Source: a virus
Reading direction: 5' to 3' (one strand)
Virus record (IMG/VR): IMGVR_UViG_3300030329_004520
Location: 18,544 to 82,543 of that record
Length of the DNA: 64,000 bases
Shown here piece by piece: positions 18,501 through 64,000 of this stretch (the stretch's first letter is position 1; the number at the start of each line of letters is the position of its first letter). A model generated the notes under the pieces. The model saw only the letters and a program-made list of their open reading frames with translations, searched no databases and was not told the DNA's origin. Made by a program: the position numbers and the translations under genes.

Positions 18501-19973
18501 AAATCAGGTTCAGATAAGTTTGAGGTAATTGATGTATCACCAAATACTCCGGACTATACAATAGTTGTTGATAAAAATTTATTTAATTCACAATCATTTT
18601 GGTATGATATGACTACTATTGAGACATTTAATTTTCCATTATATGGTAGTGGGGCAGGTACTTTAGTTTATAATGAAAACTCAATTTTAATACCAGATAC
18701 ATTTACATTAAAAGATGATTTGAGATATGACCAAAGTGTTATAAAACAAAATCACGATTTATTAAGTCACGATATAATTAATACACCACAATTAGATTTT
18801 TCCAGGTCTCCACAGAATGTTATTAACGATTTCTTAAAAGATAATTTGGGTAATTTAGATTTTAATGATTTGTTCGCCGACCCTAGAGATGAGTTTGAAG
18901 ATTCCTATGAAGCCTTAGATAAATTTAATCATAACTTAATTAATAAATTTGATATATCAATTAATATTAATAAATTTAAAAGAGGAGTATCAAGAATATT
19001 TAATTCATCACTTATAGAAAGTACTAAAAAAATGTTACCGGCTAGAGCGAAGTTAATAGATGGACTCGTTTTAAAACCAACATATACTGAACGAATTAAA
19101 ATAAAACCATTAAAAGAAAGACCTTCTGTTGAAAAGTTAGGTGACAATGAAGGAGTATTACCAGATACAAGTTGGACTTTTACACCCGGAGAAGAACATA
19201 AACCATATGCATATTCATTTAATGATTTAGATGCTGATTTTGAAGAGACTTTCTATCCATGGTATGAGAATAAAGGTGATAGTACAGGTATAATTTTAGA
19301 TGCGAGAGAATATCCAGATAGAATATTTGATGACAGACCGGAATTGTCTTGGGGTACTACACTTAATGATACTCATTTCGTTAGTCATTTAGATGCTGGT
19401 ATAAATAATGATTATAATACTGGATATTATGAAACTCAAGATGTATTTCATATGATTGGAGATATTGAATTTATATCTGGTTCATTACATTGGGGTTTAC
19501 CTCAAATTGATTATATGAAAGATAGTACTTTTAAAAATAAAAAATTATTGAAAACAAGTGATGCTGTAGCTAGTAGAGAATTAGGAACTACTTTACAATA
19601 TGTTTCTGTAAATAGTTCTTCTTATTATGGTAAACTAATTGATAATGAATTTAGAAGACCACAAAATCATCATACAACTTTTGGTGGTCATAGTCATATG
19701 AATTTAGGTAGAATATATGAAGGATATCAACATCGTGGTGATATAGACAATAATACTTATTCTAATAATACTAAAGTTTCTTATGTTGCTCCAGCTGTAA
19801 GTGATTTGGCACATAAAGTAGTTGTACCTAAAGGAGCGATGACTGATACAACAAGTAAATTAGCATATGAAGATTTAACTACACAGGCATTTTATCGTAT
19901 ACAAATTGATAATAAAGGTAAAGGAAAATTAAAAGTTATTAGGAATGATGAGATAGAAGGTACCGCATCTTAA
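15561..19973 (+). CDS. Large gpI/gp7-like baseplate wedge protein with LamG-like insertion
   Basis: In this 1470-residue protein, the region around residues 580-710 matches the tail protein I pattern: helices with LLANSLGYDF, then IYKSKGTDNSIRALLNCYG, equivalent to the KGT...AL...G signature of P2 gpI. gpI corresponds to the T4 gp7 core that bundles with gp6. Residues about 775-956 look like a concanavalin/LamG-type sandwich (FTLIMHPMMNL upstream, SGSINQFYICPDYTG, then WHYYMGEN). The long beta-rich N- and C-terminal extensions are unassigned. The order gp25-gp6-...-this gene supports the wedge call. It ends before a 95-bp gap with a late-type motif. Confidence 0.68.
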   Translation: MSSFFPQLTPSGIRFFVKKIANSKKEVQVSIIDNSITSYETGMFSWFNLTTGTEHTNKTHLYNIFTSLATTSNWAINQNEYELVISVGEGKYIPILNSLFVLDPAADNSDVNGYHMVYKTNEAIPATIKKNQTIDILILKSEYLNQEVFYAGKRPPIIKKFGNPLITDYSQTIPYQKEKLVEDFENFNELTGSVGKEKLIHTLSSSLQERLVDYSDFKNFVHFGSAEQRIKNYKTKVADIENLQINISKSLYTTGQSDPDTSDFNPSNQESVTSIRSQYFNELRTILNGFTDYEKFLYYDNQINFTGSSPGIGMNYIESEPLVTSDAIEKKADFEGFPYAYFISASTDKEVAFTAGKYMAEGNHFNNQTGSFYLSFLMKASGSFDERFKHINTQTSSLVNYPENSLNVNNILKPSSTGSEYRRYVFAASASYWLPNTGYQISHPGGNPITDWSSDSNQVKIIKEGTSVTGSLVQGFGDYANLLTTPVNAGESITGSFVPKGDLFNISIKDTSIGKATSAVVTDIKVTKTNPLDFLPFAIQYSVSSSTFNNWYDGILSSASFFDTHNIHRLYNNIPPTFQTMDTETSNRDMLQYVDMMGEFFDEYKVLIDDYYRVFDLGFSDYEMVPPKFNALLANSLGYDFLSEQSGSILEKFGLFDSFSSEQKEYNNKLFNNILNNIHYIYKSKGTDNSIRALLNCYGLPSNVLKIKETGQNLKSYEQTFLSNDTHLTAVNKLSEMTGSVSFEQYTEAFFTLIMHPMMNLTTEWNSSNVISQSAVEGVFKMETTPNTMSLFSSKVTTGGNDLWRVIVIPSGSSQPKKAKVKFQLNKSNKGVSPITTHGDTYSIETPYLDILDSKLTNILIQKSASLANAYPKTGTYDYELIVGKLDGERLKFVTGSKIQVAGGTLAGGRANQNWLSGSINQFYICPDYTGSVAEVRSWKEPLSVGAFKQHVYNPKNIVGNHFSSSLDDLEWHYYMGENYKSGSDKFEVIDVSPNTPDYTIVVDKNLFNSQSFWYDMTTIETFNFPLYGSGAGTLVYNENSILIPDTFTLKDDLRYDQSVIKQNHDLLSHDIINTPQLDFSRSPQNVINDFLKDNLGNLDFNDLFADPRDEFEDSYEALDKFNHNLINKFDISININKFKRGVSRIFNSSLIESTKKMLPARAKLIDGLVLKPTYTERIKIKPLKERPSVEKLGDNEGVLPDTSWTFTPGEEHKPYAYSFNDLDADFEETFYPWYENKGDSTGIILDAREYPDRIFDDRPELSWGTTLNDTHFVSHLDAGINNDYNTGYYETQDVFHMIGDIEFISGSLHWGLPQIDYMKDSTFKNKKLLKTSDAVASRELGTTLQYVSVNSSSYYGKLIDNEFRRPQNHHTTFGGHSHMNLGRIYEGYQHRGDIDNNTYSNNTKVSYVAPAVSDLAHKVVVPKGAMTDTTSKLAYEDLTTQAFYRIQIDNKGKGKLKVIRNDEIEGTAS

Positions 19974-59555: not shown

Positions 59556-60290
59556 TTGGTTAAAATGATGGATTTATTGACTGAAGGTATACACGACAAA
59601 GGTATCTTTAAAGCTATTTTTATGGCGGGAGGTCCTGGTAGTGGTAAATCGTATATAGCAAAAAATATATTTGGTATACCGGTTAATAGTGTGAGTAATA
59701 TAAGTATACAAGGTTTAAAGACGGTTAACTCAGATAGAGAGTTTAAATTTTTATTAAAGAAATATGGATTTGACCCTAAATTTTTAGATATGTATCCACC
59801 CGGTACTTTTGATGATGAAGGTGGATTAAGAGATTTCGCAAAACAATTAACTCATCAAAGAAAACTTGGATATCTAAATGGTAAATTAGGAATGATTATC
59901 GATGGTACAGGTTCAAAATTTCATAAAGTTAAAAAGGAAAAAGATTATTTACAGCAACAAGGATATGATTGTTATATGGTGTTTGTGTCAACTTCACTTG
60001 ATGTTGCACAAAAAAGAAATATGAATAGAGACAGAGTATTAGACCCTAAGATTGTAGAAGCTTCTTGGAAATCTACAAGAAAAAATTTAGGAGCATATAA
60101 AAAATTATTTAAAGGTAATTTTGGTCTTGTACATAATGATAAATTTTTAGAACCTGAAAAAGCGAGACATTTCTTTGGTAATTTAATTAAAGGATTTGCA
60201 AATAAATTCGCAAGTGAACCTATTAAAAATCCAATAGGTAAACAATGGGTTCAAGACCAAATTGATTTAAAAAATCGTGGTGTAAAATAG
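59556..60290 (+). CDS. P-loop kinase (zeta-toxin / polynucleotide-kinase-like)
   Basis: The 244-residue protein has Walker A GGPGSGKS at residues 25-32 after a hydrophobic strand (KAIFMA), then NSDREFKFLLKKYG, LGMIIDGTG as a Walker-B-like strand, and CYMVFVSTSLDVAQKRN with a LID-type R/N-rich stretch. This matches small nucleoside or nucleotide kinases and zeta-toxin-like phosphotransferases. Related ATPases are common in marine T4-like phages, but the substrate is unknown. The likely start is TTG at 59556 (GGAG 7 bp upstream); ATG at 59565 is an alternative. Confidence 0.72.
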   Translation: MVKMMDLLTEGIHDKGIFKAIFMAGGPGSGKSYIAKNIFGIPVNSVSNISIQGLKTVNSDREFKFLLKKYGFDPKFLDMYPPGTFDDEGGLRDFAKQLTHQRKLGYLNGKLGMIIDGTGSKFHKVKKEKDYLQQQGYDCYMVFVSTSLDVAQKRNMNRDRVLDPKIVEASWKSTRKNLGAYKKLFKGNFGLVHNDKFLEPEKARHFFGNLIKGFANKFASEPIKNPIGKQWVQDQIDLKNRGVK

Positions 60291-60335: not shown

Positions 60336-60752
60336 ATGATGGAAGAACAAGTCCAATCAATGGTTTCAGAAATGCTCGGAAAATATGGGTGGTTATTTAT
60401 AGTTGGTGTTCTAACATTACTCTTCCGTTCTACAATTGAAAAATTTGTAGCGGGTTTAATGATTTTTATGGGTAATGATTACAACGAAGACGATGTAGTA
60501 GAAGTAGACGGAAAACCGGGAAGAATAGTAAGATGTGGAATCTGGTCTACAACATTCTTCACATATGATGTCAGAGAAGGTATCATAGTTGGTGGAGCAA
60601 AACTGGTAGTTCAGAATGACAAACTGAAAGACCTTAAAATAGAAAAACCTTTACCACTTTTGGACTTGTCAAAATATAAAGTGGATACAACTTGTCAAGA
60701 GTTATTAACAGAATTGACAAAGTTACAGACGAAGCAGGAGAAAAAGAAATGA
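60336..60752 (+). CDS. Minimal MscS-like mechanosensitive-channel protein
   Basis: This 138-residue protein has a membrane helix at about residues 16-34 (YGWLFIVGVLTLLFRST) followed by IEKFVAGLMIFMGND, which aligns with the pore-lining TM3 end of MscS. The next residues follow the MscS beta domain: EDDVVEVDGKPGRIV aligns with the family's VGDWVEI-x-G-x-V motif, and CGIWSTTFFTYD with its G-x-x-x-T-x-(I/F)-T strand. LVVQNDKL stands where MscS has PNSKI. The first two MscS helices and the alpha/beta cytoplasmic cage are missing. ATG at 60336 follows CGGAG. Its stop overlaps the barrel gene start (ATGA). Confidence 0.7.
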   Translation: MMEEQVQSMVSEMLGKYGWLFIVGVLTLLFRSTIEKFVAGLMIFMGNDYNEDDVVEVDGKPGRIVRCGIWSTTFFTYDVREGIIVGGAKLVVQNDKLKDLKIEKPLPLLDLSKYKVDTTCQELLTELTKLQTKQEKKK

Positions 60753-61837
60753 AAAAGTTATTAATAACATTATTAGCAACTACTATTTTATTTGCTGAAG
60801 AAAAAAGTAATTATTTTGTAGATAACTTTCTAAAGTATTCAACATTCTATACGAGTGTAAGTTTACAGGCACCCTTCGAACCGACACAGAAGTTTGATTT
60901 TAATCAAGACTTAGGAACATTCGTTGAAACCACTGAAGAAGTTGAAGGTTCATATAATGTTTCATTTGGTATACGGAAACTAGCTAGATTCAAATATCAA
61001 TCAAAGGGTAAGAATTTTTATGATGGTTCTGAAAAAGAATTATCAGATGTAGCTACAATCGGAAATGTAAGTGGTTGGGAATATTTAATTAAATATTCAG
61101 CCATTCGTTCATTCGGTGAAGAGTTTGTAGACTCTGAAAATTGGATTAGATATGTAGGTGATAATTTTGTTGTTAAAGGTTCATATGCTAACTTTGGATT
61201 ACAAGACTTAGAGTTTGGTGGATTAGATGTTAGATATAAAAAACCAGTCGGAACAAATTGGAATTTTTCTGTAGGTGGTAACTTTAGAGGACATCCAGCA
61301 TATGGACTATTTCCATTCAATGATTGGTTAGCTGATTCAAATGGTCAATGGTGGACATTGGCTTATGATTATGGATATGATGATGAGTATTGGTTTGATG
61401 ATATAAATGAAAATGGTATTCAAGACCCCGGAGAATATGGTGACTATCAATGGTTTGATGAAAATAATGAATTAGTTGCTGATACAGATGATGAGTTCTA
61501 TGAATATTATTATGGTGATTTAATTACACTTTACAATGAAGAAGAGGTTGATAAACTTGGCTGGCAATACGAAGCTTCATTAGTTTTAGGTGTAGATTAC
61601 TATTTATATGATAGACAATATTGGGTTCATGGATGGGCTTCTGTAATGCCATTTAGTAAAGGACTTACAGATTATGCTTTTGTATACGAGAAAGGTGATA
61701 TTGACTTTGATATTGGTCTAGTGGCAGGATATAAATTGAATAGAAATTTTGGTATCTTCGGTGAAGGTAGATATTTAAGATATTGGGGAATTGATTCTTA
61801 TGAATTAAAAGCAGGAATCAATTACACTATTTTTTAG
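60749..61837 (+). CDS. Exported outer-membrane beta-barrel protein
   Basis: The 362-residue protein starts at ATG 60749, overlapping the previous TGA with AGGAG upstream. A longer frame from TTG 60692 lacks a ribosome site and would bury the signal peptide. MKKLLITLLATTILFA is a clear signal peptide. The mature part has alternating strands (YNVSFGIRKLARFKY, NWNFSVGGNFRGH, GWQYEASLVLGVDYYLY) and ends YELKAGINYTIF with terminal Phe. An acidic loop at residues 218-229 (DINENGIQDPGE) resembles calcium-binding loops. It is probably inserted into the host outer membrane and may act in receptor masking or permeability. Exact family unknown. Confidence 0.75.
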   Translation: MKKLLITLLATTILFAEEKSNYFVDNFLKYSTFYTSVSLQAPFEPTQKFDFNQDLGTFVETTEEVEGSYNVSFGIRKLARFKYQSKGKNFYDGSEKELSDVATIGNVSGWEYLIKYSAIRSFGEEFVDSENWIRYVGDNFVVKGSYANFGLQDLEFGGLDVRYKKPVGTNWNFSVGGNFRGHPAYGLFPFNDWLADSNGQWWTLAYDYGYDDEYWFDDINENGIQDPGEYGDYQWFDENNELVADTDDEFYEYYYGDLITLYNEEEVDKLGWQYEASLVLGVDYYLYDRQYWVHGWASVMPFSKGLTDYAFVYEKGDIDFDIGLVAGYKLNRNFGIFGEGRYLRYWGIDSYELKAGINYTIF

Positions 61838-61845
61838 GAAGACAT

Positions 61846-62532
61846 ATGAAGATAGGTGAAATATTAGTTCAAAAAGGATATATTACTCAACAACAGCTTG
61901 ATGGTGTGTTGGCAGTGAAAGGTCCTGATGCTCAAGTAGGACAAGTTCTCATACAATGGGGACTACTTACTGATGCACAATTAATGGAAGCATTGGAGAT
62001 ACAAGCTCCACCTCCACCTCCACCTCCACCAGTTCAACCGGTTCAGACAGCTCAGCCAGTCTATCAACAGCCACCTGTAACAACTCCACCACCAAGTGGT
62101 GGTCCAGATTTAACAATGGACAATTTACAAACATCAAAGTTTAAAATTGATTTAAAGACTATGATATACATCGGTTCATTATTAGTAAGTGGTATCACAA
62201 TGTATTTTACATTTATGGCAGAATTAGATGATAGATTCGGAGCATTAGAATCACAAGACAATACTCTTGTTGTTGATATTGATAAAAGATTAACATCATT
62301 AGAAACAACAATTGATAAGAGAGTAACAGAATTAGAAAATAAATTTACACCAATTGGTGACGGGGTTTATTCAGTAGACCCAAATACAACTTGGCCACCA
62401 AGTCGTGGTGAGTATACTATGAAACAGAATATGAATGCAAATAAAATTTTAGTGTTAGAAGAAACTATAGACAGATTAGAAAAAACTTTAGAAAAGTTAG
62501 AAAATAAATTAGATAATAAAGTTGATAAGTAG
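61846..62532 (+). CDS. MshEN/GspE-N-type domain + Pro-rich linker + TM + coiled-coil protein
   Basis: In this 228-residue protein, residues 1-53 hold two short repeats, MKIGEILVQKGYITQQQL and VGQVLIQWGLLTDAQL, the pattern of the N-terminal domain of type II secretion/pilus ATPases (MshEN, which in some proteins binds cyclic-di-GMP). A Pro-rich linker (CCACCT tandem repeat around 62008-62028), one TM helix (about residues 104-124, MIYIGSLLVSGITMYF) and a C-terminal coiled coil (LEETIDRLEKTLEKLENKL) follow. No ATPase domain is present. The topology would be cytoplasmic N-terminus and periplasmic coiled coil. Placement among exported proteins suggests it links cytoplasmic sensing to the envelope. 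Confidence 0.68.
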   Translation: MKIGEILVQKGYITQQQLDGVLAVKGPDAQVGQVLIQWGLLTDAQLMEALEIQAPPPPPPPPVQPVQTAQPVYQQPPVTTPPPSGGPDLTMDNLQTSKFKIDLKTMIYIGSLLVSGITMYFTFMAELDDRFGALESQDNTLVVDIDKRLTSLETTIDKRVTELENKFTPIGDGVYSVDPNTTWPPSRGEYTMKQNMNANKILVLEETIDRLEKTLEKLENKLDNKVDK

Positions 62533-62540
62533 GAGGGGTT

Positions 62541-62924
62541 ATGTTTAAGAAATTAATTATATTGGGTATGTTAGTTACATCACTTTTTGGTAATGTTCGA
62601 GAACTAACAGATGAAAACTTTGATAAAGCTATAAAAAGAGGTGTAGTAGTAATTGAATATTATGCCGGTTGGAATAAAGCTAATATAGTAACAATATTAG
62701 ATGAATGGGATAACTTTGAAGTCAGTAGAGTGTTTAGATTAGATGTTGAAAAATATGATAAAATTATGACTTCACAGAAAGTAGTAGTGTTACCAACAAT
62801 AATTTTTTATCTTGATGGAGAAGAAGCAGCGAGACTTCAAGGTAATATGAAGTTTCAATTAGAAACAACAATAAAAGAACTTGACAGAATGGTTGAGGAT
62901 TTAAGAGGAAGTAAATTTAATTAG
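62541..62924 (+). CDS. Exported thioredoxin-fold protein lacking the redox cysteines
   Basis: The 127-residue protein has the signal peptide MFKKLIILGMLVTSLFG, then a thioredoxin-like order: RELTDENFDKAI, VVVIEYYAGWNKANI (the strand and the W-C-G-P-C position), VFRLDVEKY, then VVVLPTIIFYLDGEEAARLQG with the conserved cis-Pro. At the active site the two Cys are both Asn (WNKAN), and the entire protein has no Cys, so disulphide exchange is impossible. It is more likely a binding or chaperone protein in the periplasm. Strong AGGAGGGG site. Confidence 0.78.
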   Translation: MFKKLIILGMLVTSLFGNVRELTDENFDKAIKRGVVVIEYYAGWNKANIVTILDEWDNFEVSRVFRLDVEKYDKIMTSQKVVVLPTIIFYLDGEEAARLQGNMKFQLETTIKELDRMVEDLRGSKFN

Positions 62925-62933
62925 GAGAGAGTT

Positions 62934-63881
62934 ATGAAAAAGTTATTAATGTATTTAATGAGTTTTATGTTACTATTCACAATTAGTTGTGATGGTGACG
63001 ACCCAATATCAGGTGGAGTTGACCCTGAACCAGAATTAGTTGGTTGTGAAGCCACAACATTCTATGATTGGAATGATTTTGAATTTTCAACATCACTTGA
63101 TGCAGGTGCTACTACTTGGTTAGGTTTTGAATTAGATGAAACAACTTTATTCTCAATCAATTTAAATCAAGCAGGTTTTCATTGTGCTATATTTACAGAG
63201 TGTGATGGTGAGTTAGGTTCACCACCACCATTGTATAGTTTTATGACAAATGGAAATGGTCAAGAAGTTGGTATAGTAACAGAGGGAATTTACTATTTAG
63301 AAATTACAAATACAAGACCTGGTAGATTAGATTTTGATTTTAGTATTCAGTTAAATGATATAGTTTATGGTTGTATGAATGATGATGCTATAAATTATAA
63401 TGGTGATGCTAATGTAGATGATGGTAGTTGTGAATTTAATGATTGTAATGTAGATTATTATGTAGAAGCTTATGATGATTATGCTTCTAATCTTTATTTC
63501 CCAATGGTATTAGATTGTGATGGTAATTGTGCACCTGAAAGTTGGATTGGTGATAATTATTGTGATGACGGAGCTTATGGTATTTATGGACCAGATGGTG
63601 AAGTTGTTCCAATTAACTTATGGTGTGAAGAATTAAACTTCGATGAAGGTGATTGTGAAGTTATACCTGGTGAATGTACAGAAGGATTAATCGAAGATTG
63701 TAATGGGATATGTGCACCTGCAGGATGGTTAGGTGACGGATTCTGTGACGATGGTTCTTATGAGTATAATGGTAATCAAATATTCTTTAATTGTGAAGAG
63801 TTTGATAATGACAATGGTGATTGTGATGTTATGGGAAGAACAACACGAAGACCATCAAATAGAGTTTTTATAGGACAATAG
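62934..63881 (+). CDS. Cysteine/aspartate-rich surface lipoprotein
   Basis: The 315-residue protein has a signal sequence ending FTISC, with C19 as probable lipid-modified Cys. Residues about 37-135 look like a pre-peptidase C-terminal-type beta domain (TTWLGFELDETTLF, GIYYLEITNTRPG). A GCMNDDAINYNGDANVDDG repeat unit follows, then two Notch-like Cys/Asp repeats (DCDGNCAPESWIGDNYCDDG and DCNGICAPAGWLGDGFCDDG), each closed by a (D/N)-x-GDC. These units are, from memory, typical of secreted proteins in Marinimicrobia and Bacteroidota and rare in phages, so the gene may be host-derived. The last residues (RRPSNRVFIGQ) are basic. AGGAGAG site. Confidence 0.75.
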   Translation: MKKLLMYLMSFMLLFTISCDGDDPISGGVDPEPELVGCEATTFYDWNDFEFSTSLDAGATTWLGFELDETTLFSINLNQAGFHCAIFTECDGELGSPPPLYSFMTNGNGQEVGIVTEGIYYLEITNTRPGRLDFDFSIQLNDIVYGCMNDDAINYNGDANVDDGSCEFNDCNVDYYVEAYDDYASNLYFPMVLDCDGNCAPESWIGDNYCDDGAYGIYGPDGEVVPINLWCEELNFDEGDCEVIPGECTEGLIEDCNGICAPAGWLGDGFCDDGSYEYNGNQIFFNCEEFDNDNGDCDVMGRTTRRPSNRVFIGQ

Positions 63882-63882
63882 T

Positions 63883-64000
63883 ATGAAAAAGTTATTAATG
63901 GGTTTACTGCTGGTATCATTTTTGGTATCAGCGGAACCTGAAAAAAAAGAAGAAGTTGGTAGATATAAAATAGAGATTACAACATATGTTAGTAAAAAAG
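63883..64000 (+). CDS. Exported protein, N-terminal part (3' truncated by window)
   Basis: ATG at 63883 comes one base after the previous stop. The 39 visible codons begin MKKLLMGLLLVSFLVSAEP, a signal peptide with a likely cut after VSA, then EKKEEVGRYKIEITTYVSKK. The first 17 bases of the gene match those of 60749 and 62934, as if the leader had been copied. No function can be given from the fragment. Confidence 0.7.
   Translation, partial: MKKLLMGLLLVSFLVSAEPEKKEEVGRYKIEITTYVSKK

Follow-up and report, generated by a model that had tools for sequence, protein, structure and literature searches.

The final 64 kb of the 82,543-base virus record IMGVR_UViG_3300030329_004520 (positions 18,544 to 82,543; in the following, the window) close with a cassette of envelope genes at positions 60336-64000, which, according to the sequence and its open reading frames, comprises five complete genes for envelope or exported proteins on the same strand and a truncated sixth one. 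The conserved unit is not the six-gene set but a trio of genes, coding for an outer-membrane beta-barrel protein (BARREL), a transmembrane (TM)-coiled-coil protein (MSHEN) and an exported protein with a thioredoxin fold (TRX). An envelope-spanning complex that acts when the outer membrane is breached during lysis, or earlier, is the best explanation for this trio, because of the anatomy of its proteins and its position in lysis operons of related phages. The probability is put at about 0.42 that the three proteins form a late complex which breaches the outer membrane at lysis, or gates this breach, and which is thereby a functional analogue of the spanins and not a member of the spanin family. 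We infer complex formation, localisation, timing and function of the trio alike.

A conserved trio within the cassette

The BARREL profile matched at least 569 viral stretches of IMG/VR. Among 166 BARREL loci that were fetched, 135 included a homologue of MSHEN and 145 a homologue of TRX; all three genes were complete in 121 loci, corresponding to 72 non-redundant ones. MSHEN and TRX are separated by no more than 60 bp in nearly all pairs (126 of 130). Depending on the lineage, the barrel gene stands first or last (gene orders BMT, MTB and TB), and the set is kept through these rearrangements. In addition, distances within the three families co-vary among the 72 non-redundant genomes (r = 0.72-0.86), down to identities of about 11-26%. 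Based on this co-occurrence, the tight MSHEN-TRX spacing, the co-variation and the reordering without splitting, the trio is regarded as the conserved unit.

A preliminary description of the cassette had reported at least six co-oriented genes and raised the question whether they move together. The layout was correct, with neighbouring genes 1-9 bp apart or overlapping by 4 bp, although the sixth gene is incomplete; as the window ends where the record ends, this truncation is due to the end of the contig and not to the choice of window. Joint movement holds for the trio but not for all six genes. The complete five-gene order was found in L003, L005 and L006, while L004 has three genes inserted after BARREL. 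A fixed six-gene cassette was rejected, as the full set occurs in close relatives only, the gene for the MscS-like protein (MSCS) is separable and the gene for the Cys-rich lipoprotein (LIPO) is bound to one lineage. Genes occurring singly in unrelated places, named beforehand as an observation that would speak against a common unit, were thus partly encountered, namely for MSCS, and LIPO was present only in the closest relatives. What the preliminary description missed is that fewer than six genes make up the conserved unit and that a gene for an AAA/zeta-toxin-type kinase precedes the cassette in the closest relatives, being the next upstream gene in all of them by synteny. All five complete genes are under purifying selection in the window and in L003, L004, L005 and L006 (median ratio of non-synonymous to synonymous polymorphism, pN/pS, 0.24-0.35), which supports their coding status.

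Anatomy of the trio proteins

BARREL possesses a signal peptide and a C-terminal beta-signal (sequence end ...INYTIF), both in keeping with an outer-membrane beta-barrel. Its AlphaFold (AF2) model, with a predicted local distance difference test (pLDDT) score of 81, exhibits about 12 membrane strands, and the closest solved structure in a Foldseek search was the 12-strand porin NanC (4.7e-5), with OMPLA and OmpG ranked below. The nearest predicted viral structure belongs to an unnamed phage protein of 29% identity. Neither a Pfam family nor a PHROG matched BARREL, no sequence match to a solved structure reached a meaningful E-value, and the members tried yielded zero matches among 50,697 phage records (INPHARED). 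An OMPLA-like phospholipase was considered for BARREL and rejected, since the strand number is the same but no HxSNG-type Ser/His pair is found among the invariant residues. Host genes were likewise rejected as a source of BARREL: among 84,980 genomes of bacteria and archaea the profile hit no more than five contigs, at least some of which are likely viral contigs within metagenome-assembled genomes (MAGs). The closest of them, from a Pelagibacter MAG, is 77% identical and looks viral because it is collinear with viral contigs. A second, different porin-like exported protein with a weak Porin_O_P match is encoded on a 168.8-kb phage contig related to the window phage (L208:6825-7664).

MSHEN consists of a cytoplasmic MshEN domain, a Pro-rich linker, a single TM helix and a periplasmic coiled coil. 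Its N-terminal domain is homologous to those of MshE from V. cholerae (1.1e-9) and PilB (6e-11) in profile searches. In most relatives the homologue comprises TM helix and coiled coil only (90-114 aa), without an MshEN domain. The charges flanking the TM helix (family mean of 1.98 K+R per 12 residues before and 1.03 after it) point to an N-in/C-out topology, and the 51-103 aa that follow are heptad-like, the coiled coil being judged from sequence only. The strict cyclic di-GMP (c-di-GMP) motif of MshEN domains consists of two 24-residue RLG...LxxxLxxQ motifs with a 5-residue spacer (PMC5013675). This motif is degenerate in the window, where K and Q replace both Arg, and a motif scan found the strict form in no family member, so that an active c-di-GMP sensor is not supported.

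TRX matches Pfam Thioredoxin (5.6e-9), and its AF2 model (pLDDT 87) retrieved thioredoxins in Foldseek (7e-8). The family has an invariant Gly and an invariant Pro (Pro85), the latter matching the conserved (cis-)Pro of a thioredoxin fold. The mature protein of the window is free of Cys, and only one of 145 relatives contains CxxC; an active thiol-disulphide enzyme was therefore rejected. Taken together, Pfam, profiles, structure models and the lipobox of LIPO upheld the identities first assigned to the cassette genes (MscS-like protein, outer-membrane barrel, MshEN-TM-coiled-coil protein, thioredoxin fold lacking Cys, Cys-rich lipoprotein).

Linkage to lysis genes in related phages

Peptidase_M15_3, an endolysin-type domain, was found above the cut-off in 10 of 50 BARREL records, in all ten on the same strand and 0.7-2.5 kb downstream of BARREL. 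GTA_holin_3TM exceeded the cut-off in seven of these 50 records, each time on the same strand and within 2 kb downstream. For the M15 linkage a rough chance product of 2e-10 was obtained, relatedness being ignored. When M15, holin-like, DUF5675 and related lysis-candidate genes are considered together, 38 of 39 well-flanked loci have at least one within 6.5 kb, the exception being the lineage of the window; DUF5675 and cluster c61 count here as no more than lysis candidates, and part of the holin assignments (c9, c13) stems from shared sequence features and not from an above-cut-off Pfam match. Lysin and holin types vary between loci while the trio stays. A typical order, with several overlapping genes, is seen in L080: tail-fibre-like protein, small TM protein, BARREL, TM-coiled-coil protein, DUF2279-like protein, TRX, exported protein, M15 and holin. 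This layout from portal to M15 and holin is also present in the cultured flavophage P12024S, with a different single-TM protein in the slot of the trio. Exported proteins near the trio in flavobacterial-type phages (L080:7971-8480, L133:7524-8303 and relatives; clusters c101 and c6) have short C-terminal tails which, by eye, look like type IX secretion sorting domains.

A possible role at lysis and its alternatives

The cassette appears to be built round a three-gene phage module that is probably late. BARREL would reside in the outer membrane, and the short TM-coiled-coil protein would be anchored in the inner membrane and extend its coiled coil into the periplasm, where TRX, as a redox-dead fold, would act as an adaptor or chaperone between the two. 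Once holin and endolysin have acted, such a complex could breach the outer membrane or license its breach, doing the same job as spanins with a different architecture. Additions in the T4-like lineage of the window would be an MscS-type channel, a sensor-like MshEN domain on the inner-membrane protein and a Cys-rich lipoprotein; these could tune timing or osmotic behaviour.

Several observations weigh against a lysis complex. The trio is missing from P12024S, where the same M15 and holin occur, and a 12-strand porin-like barrel is unlike any known spanin. M15, DUF5675 and the small TM genes are only putatively of lysis type, by family or by eye. Furthermore, the 82.5-kb record of the window yielded no lysis gene or endolysin, inside or beside the cassette included, and in its T4-like group the trio lies 12-43 kb from a GH108 endolysin. 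Because the endolysin is unlinked in the window's own lineage, a function in lysis is something that we infer. Of the envelope alterations suggested in the preliminary description, the direction 'before lysis' gained support from relatives carrying the trio in lysis operons, whereas exclusion or receptor masking did not.

The best surviving alternative, although unlikely, is envelope stabilisation or osmotic control, in which inner-membrane coiled coil, outer-membrane barrel and lipoprotein would tether the membranes in a Tol-Pal-like manner while the MscS-type protein vents solute and prevents an early burst. The MscS-type beta-domain with its N-terminal TM stretch and the N-in topology of the coiled-coil protein fit with this idea, and closeness to lysis genes would also suit a role in lysis timing. 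MSCS, however, is present in only 11 of 50 trio records, absent from 39 and separable in the rest, and neither the trio nor LIPO showed a Pal or OmpA peptidoglycan-binding domain.

Superinfection exclusion or receptor masking, with BARREL or LIPO blocking or replacing a phage receptor and being encoded beside tail fibres much as Llp of T5 lies next to its receptor-binding protein, appears improbable. Cassette genes do come after tail-fibre-like genes and encode exported outer-membrane proteins, and phage-borne porins exist (BFVD annotations). Yet conservation of BARREL extends across hundreds of phages, and there is no hypervariability in its large predicted outer loop (2.25 bits compared with 2.5-3.1 in the strands); moreover, a blocker needs neither an inner-membrane coiled coil nor a thioredoxin fold, and the linkage to M15 and holin does not fit. 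A nutrient or solute channel, that is, a phage porin with a periplasmic binding or adaptor protein raising uptake in oligotrophic sea water, seems slightly less probable still. It would agree with the similarity to 12-strand NanC/KdgM-type porins and with conserved charged residues of BARREL, some of which are likely pore-facing, but not with the lysis-operon position and with a periplasmic partner that is a thioredoxin fold instead of a solute-binding protein. Virion or virion-assembly proteins are highly improbable, since, although tail fibre genes adjoin, the Sec signal peptides that BARREL and TRX carry, the lipobox on LIPO and the TM helix in MSHEN mark envelope proteins, as initially proposed, and no PHROG tail family was matched.

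Cassette layout and lineage-specific additions

Table 1. Genes and domains of the envelope cassette, in window coordinates.
Feature	Position	Strand	Description
AAA_33/zeta-toxin-type kinase (context)	59565..60290 (alternative start 59556)	+	Pfam Zeta_toxin 6.4e-9
MSCS	60336..60752	+	minimal MscS-type protein, 138 aa; hydrophobic N-terminal stretch and MscS beta-domain; optional, mobile
BARREL	60749..61837	+	core gene 1; exported outer-membrane beta-barrel of ~12 strands, 362 aa; 4-bp ATGA overlap with MSCS
MSHEN	61846..62532	+	core gene 2; 228 aa; 8-bp gap after BARREL
MshEN domain of MSHEN (aa 1-53)	61846..62004	+	profile against PDB 5htl 1.1e-9
TM helix of MSHEN (single, about aa 106-125)	62161..62220	+	N-in/C-out by charge
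TRX	62541..62924	+	core gene 3; 127 aa; exported, thioredoxin fold lacking CxxC; 8-bp gap after MSHEN
LIPO	62934..63881	+	Cys-rich lipoprotein, 315 aa; 9-bp gap after TRX; restricted to the window's lineage
Sixth gene (start only)	63883..64000	+	small exported protein; 1-bp gap after LIPO; exported homologues L004:15549-15779 (76 aa) and L006:13591-13797 (68 aa)

MSCS, the MshEN domain and LIPO are lineage-specific additions to the trio. MSCS matches Pfam MS_channel_2nd above the cut-off (3.2e-6), and a predicted TM3-like helix precedes its beta-domain, as in MscS. Its relatives were detected at 61 viral loci, in about 24 of which the gene lies immediately 5' of BARREL; at the remaining ones it stands alone at varied places, sometimes on the opposite strand. 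No match to MSCS was found in the 50,697 phage records, and a literature search for phage MscS in marine phages or cyanophages yielded no description. L013:10037-11041 contains two near-tandem MSCS genes without an adjacent barrel, one of them strongly diverged (40% identical to that of the window). LIPO has the lipobox LFTISC with its Cys at aa 19 and a median pN/pS of 0.35; outside the window, its occurrence is limited to contigs L002-L006 and their duplicates. Its C-terminal part (window 63041-63870) exhibits repeats of the types CMNDDAINY...DDGSC and WLGDGFCDDG...FDNDNGDC, which look similar to the calcium-binding repeats that secreted proteins of Bacteroidota and Marinimicrobia from the sea contain.

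In sister lineages, a membrane protein with a Popeye domain (POPDC1-3, 1.4e-13) and a cyclic-nucleotide-binding domain is encoded directly 3' of TRX (L015:13497-14150 and relatives); a literature search turned up no account of Popeye proteins in phages. The degenerate MshEN domain, the MscS channel and this Popeye and cyclic-nucleotide-binding protein suggest a lineage-specific regulation.

The record also codes for RimK, peptide deformylase, phosphomannomutase, HSP20, a pyrimidine-dimer glycosylase and a ferredoxin-type protein (L067, its first 18.5 kb; some possibly in the window). The nearest cultured relatives of the trio phages infect marine or Baltic flavobacteria: L154 is closest to immuto, with a ribonucleotide reductase 75% identical, and L140 to P12024S, with a portal protein 34% identical. 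The host is probably a member of the Bacteroidota or a relative, with weaker evidence for the window phage itself, whose primase shares about 39-41% identity with its counterparts in a Microcystis phage and in Flavobacterium phage immuto. A Volactin-family actin homologue (E 2e-75) is encoded at L211:13963-15018 on the same 168.8-kb contig, from a relative of the window phage, that carries the second porin-like protein.

Comparison with known systems

With the MscS family, MSCS shares the above-cut-off beta-domain and the preceding TM segment. Unlike bacterial MscS, the phage proteins have only 110-138 aa, lack the extra TM helices and the C-terminal cage and are without a relative among the isolated phages searched. 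The MshEN domain is a homologous 53-residue tandem domain of the c-di-GMP receptor type known from MshE, PilB and PilF (profile E 1e-9 to 5e-18), but rides on a single-TM protein without ATPase. The solved structures closest to the BARREL model are NanC/KdgM-type 12-strand porins, OMPLA and OmpG, from which it differs by an identity of only ~10% and by its occurrence in phage contigs. Phage-encoded porins and Llp-type proteins have in common with BARREL a phage-borne outer-membrane location near tail genes. T5 Llp is encoded beside the receptor-binding protein, and Llp-type exclusion proteins and phage porins act singly, on specific receptors, whereas a conserved three-protein set extends across the envelope here.

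The closest functional parallel, two-component spanins such as Rz/Rz1 of lambda and relatives, which fuse or disrupt the outer membrane once the peptidoglycan is gone, share with the trio a short N-in inner-membrane protein with a periplasmic coiled coil, the pairing of this protein with an outer-membrane partner and, in the relatives of the trio but not in the T4-like group of the window, the linkage to endolysin and holin. They differ in that the outer-membrane partner of the trio is a beta-barrel of ~360 aa instead of a small lipoprotein, that a third protein with a thioredoxin fold belongs to the set and that there is no recognisable spanin homology. By definition, the partner in a two-component spanin is a small outer-membrane lipoprotein carrying a lipobox (PMC6139136). 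As this partner was looked for and not found, the trio is not classed as a spanin: a lipobox scan of 70 loci yielded one Pro-rich, o-spanin-like candidate of 61 aa (L114) and one doubtful match of 48 aa, the other lipoproteins being lineage-specific and ~180-315 aa long. In a 2025 survey (PMC12596118), spanins were reported as absent from cyanophages and as exclusively unimolecular in phages of Bacteroidetes; a different device for the outer membrane would close this gap in such phages. It is conceivable, if doubtful, that the trio represents a third architecture for breaching the outer membrane next to that of two-component spanins and that of unimolecular ones. It would serve a large group of uncultured marine phages whose hosts are probably Bacteroidota and relatives, and some lineages would have added parts that sense nucleotides or tension. 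For the way in which many marine phages breach the outer membrane, a widespread, strictly linked trio beside holin and endolysin provides a concrete candidate, and the BARREL family itself can serve as a marker for a large phage group without counterpart in the annotated phage records searched.

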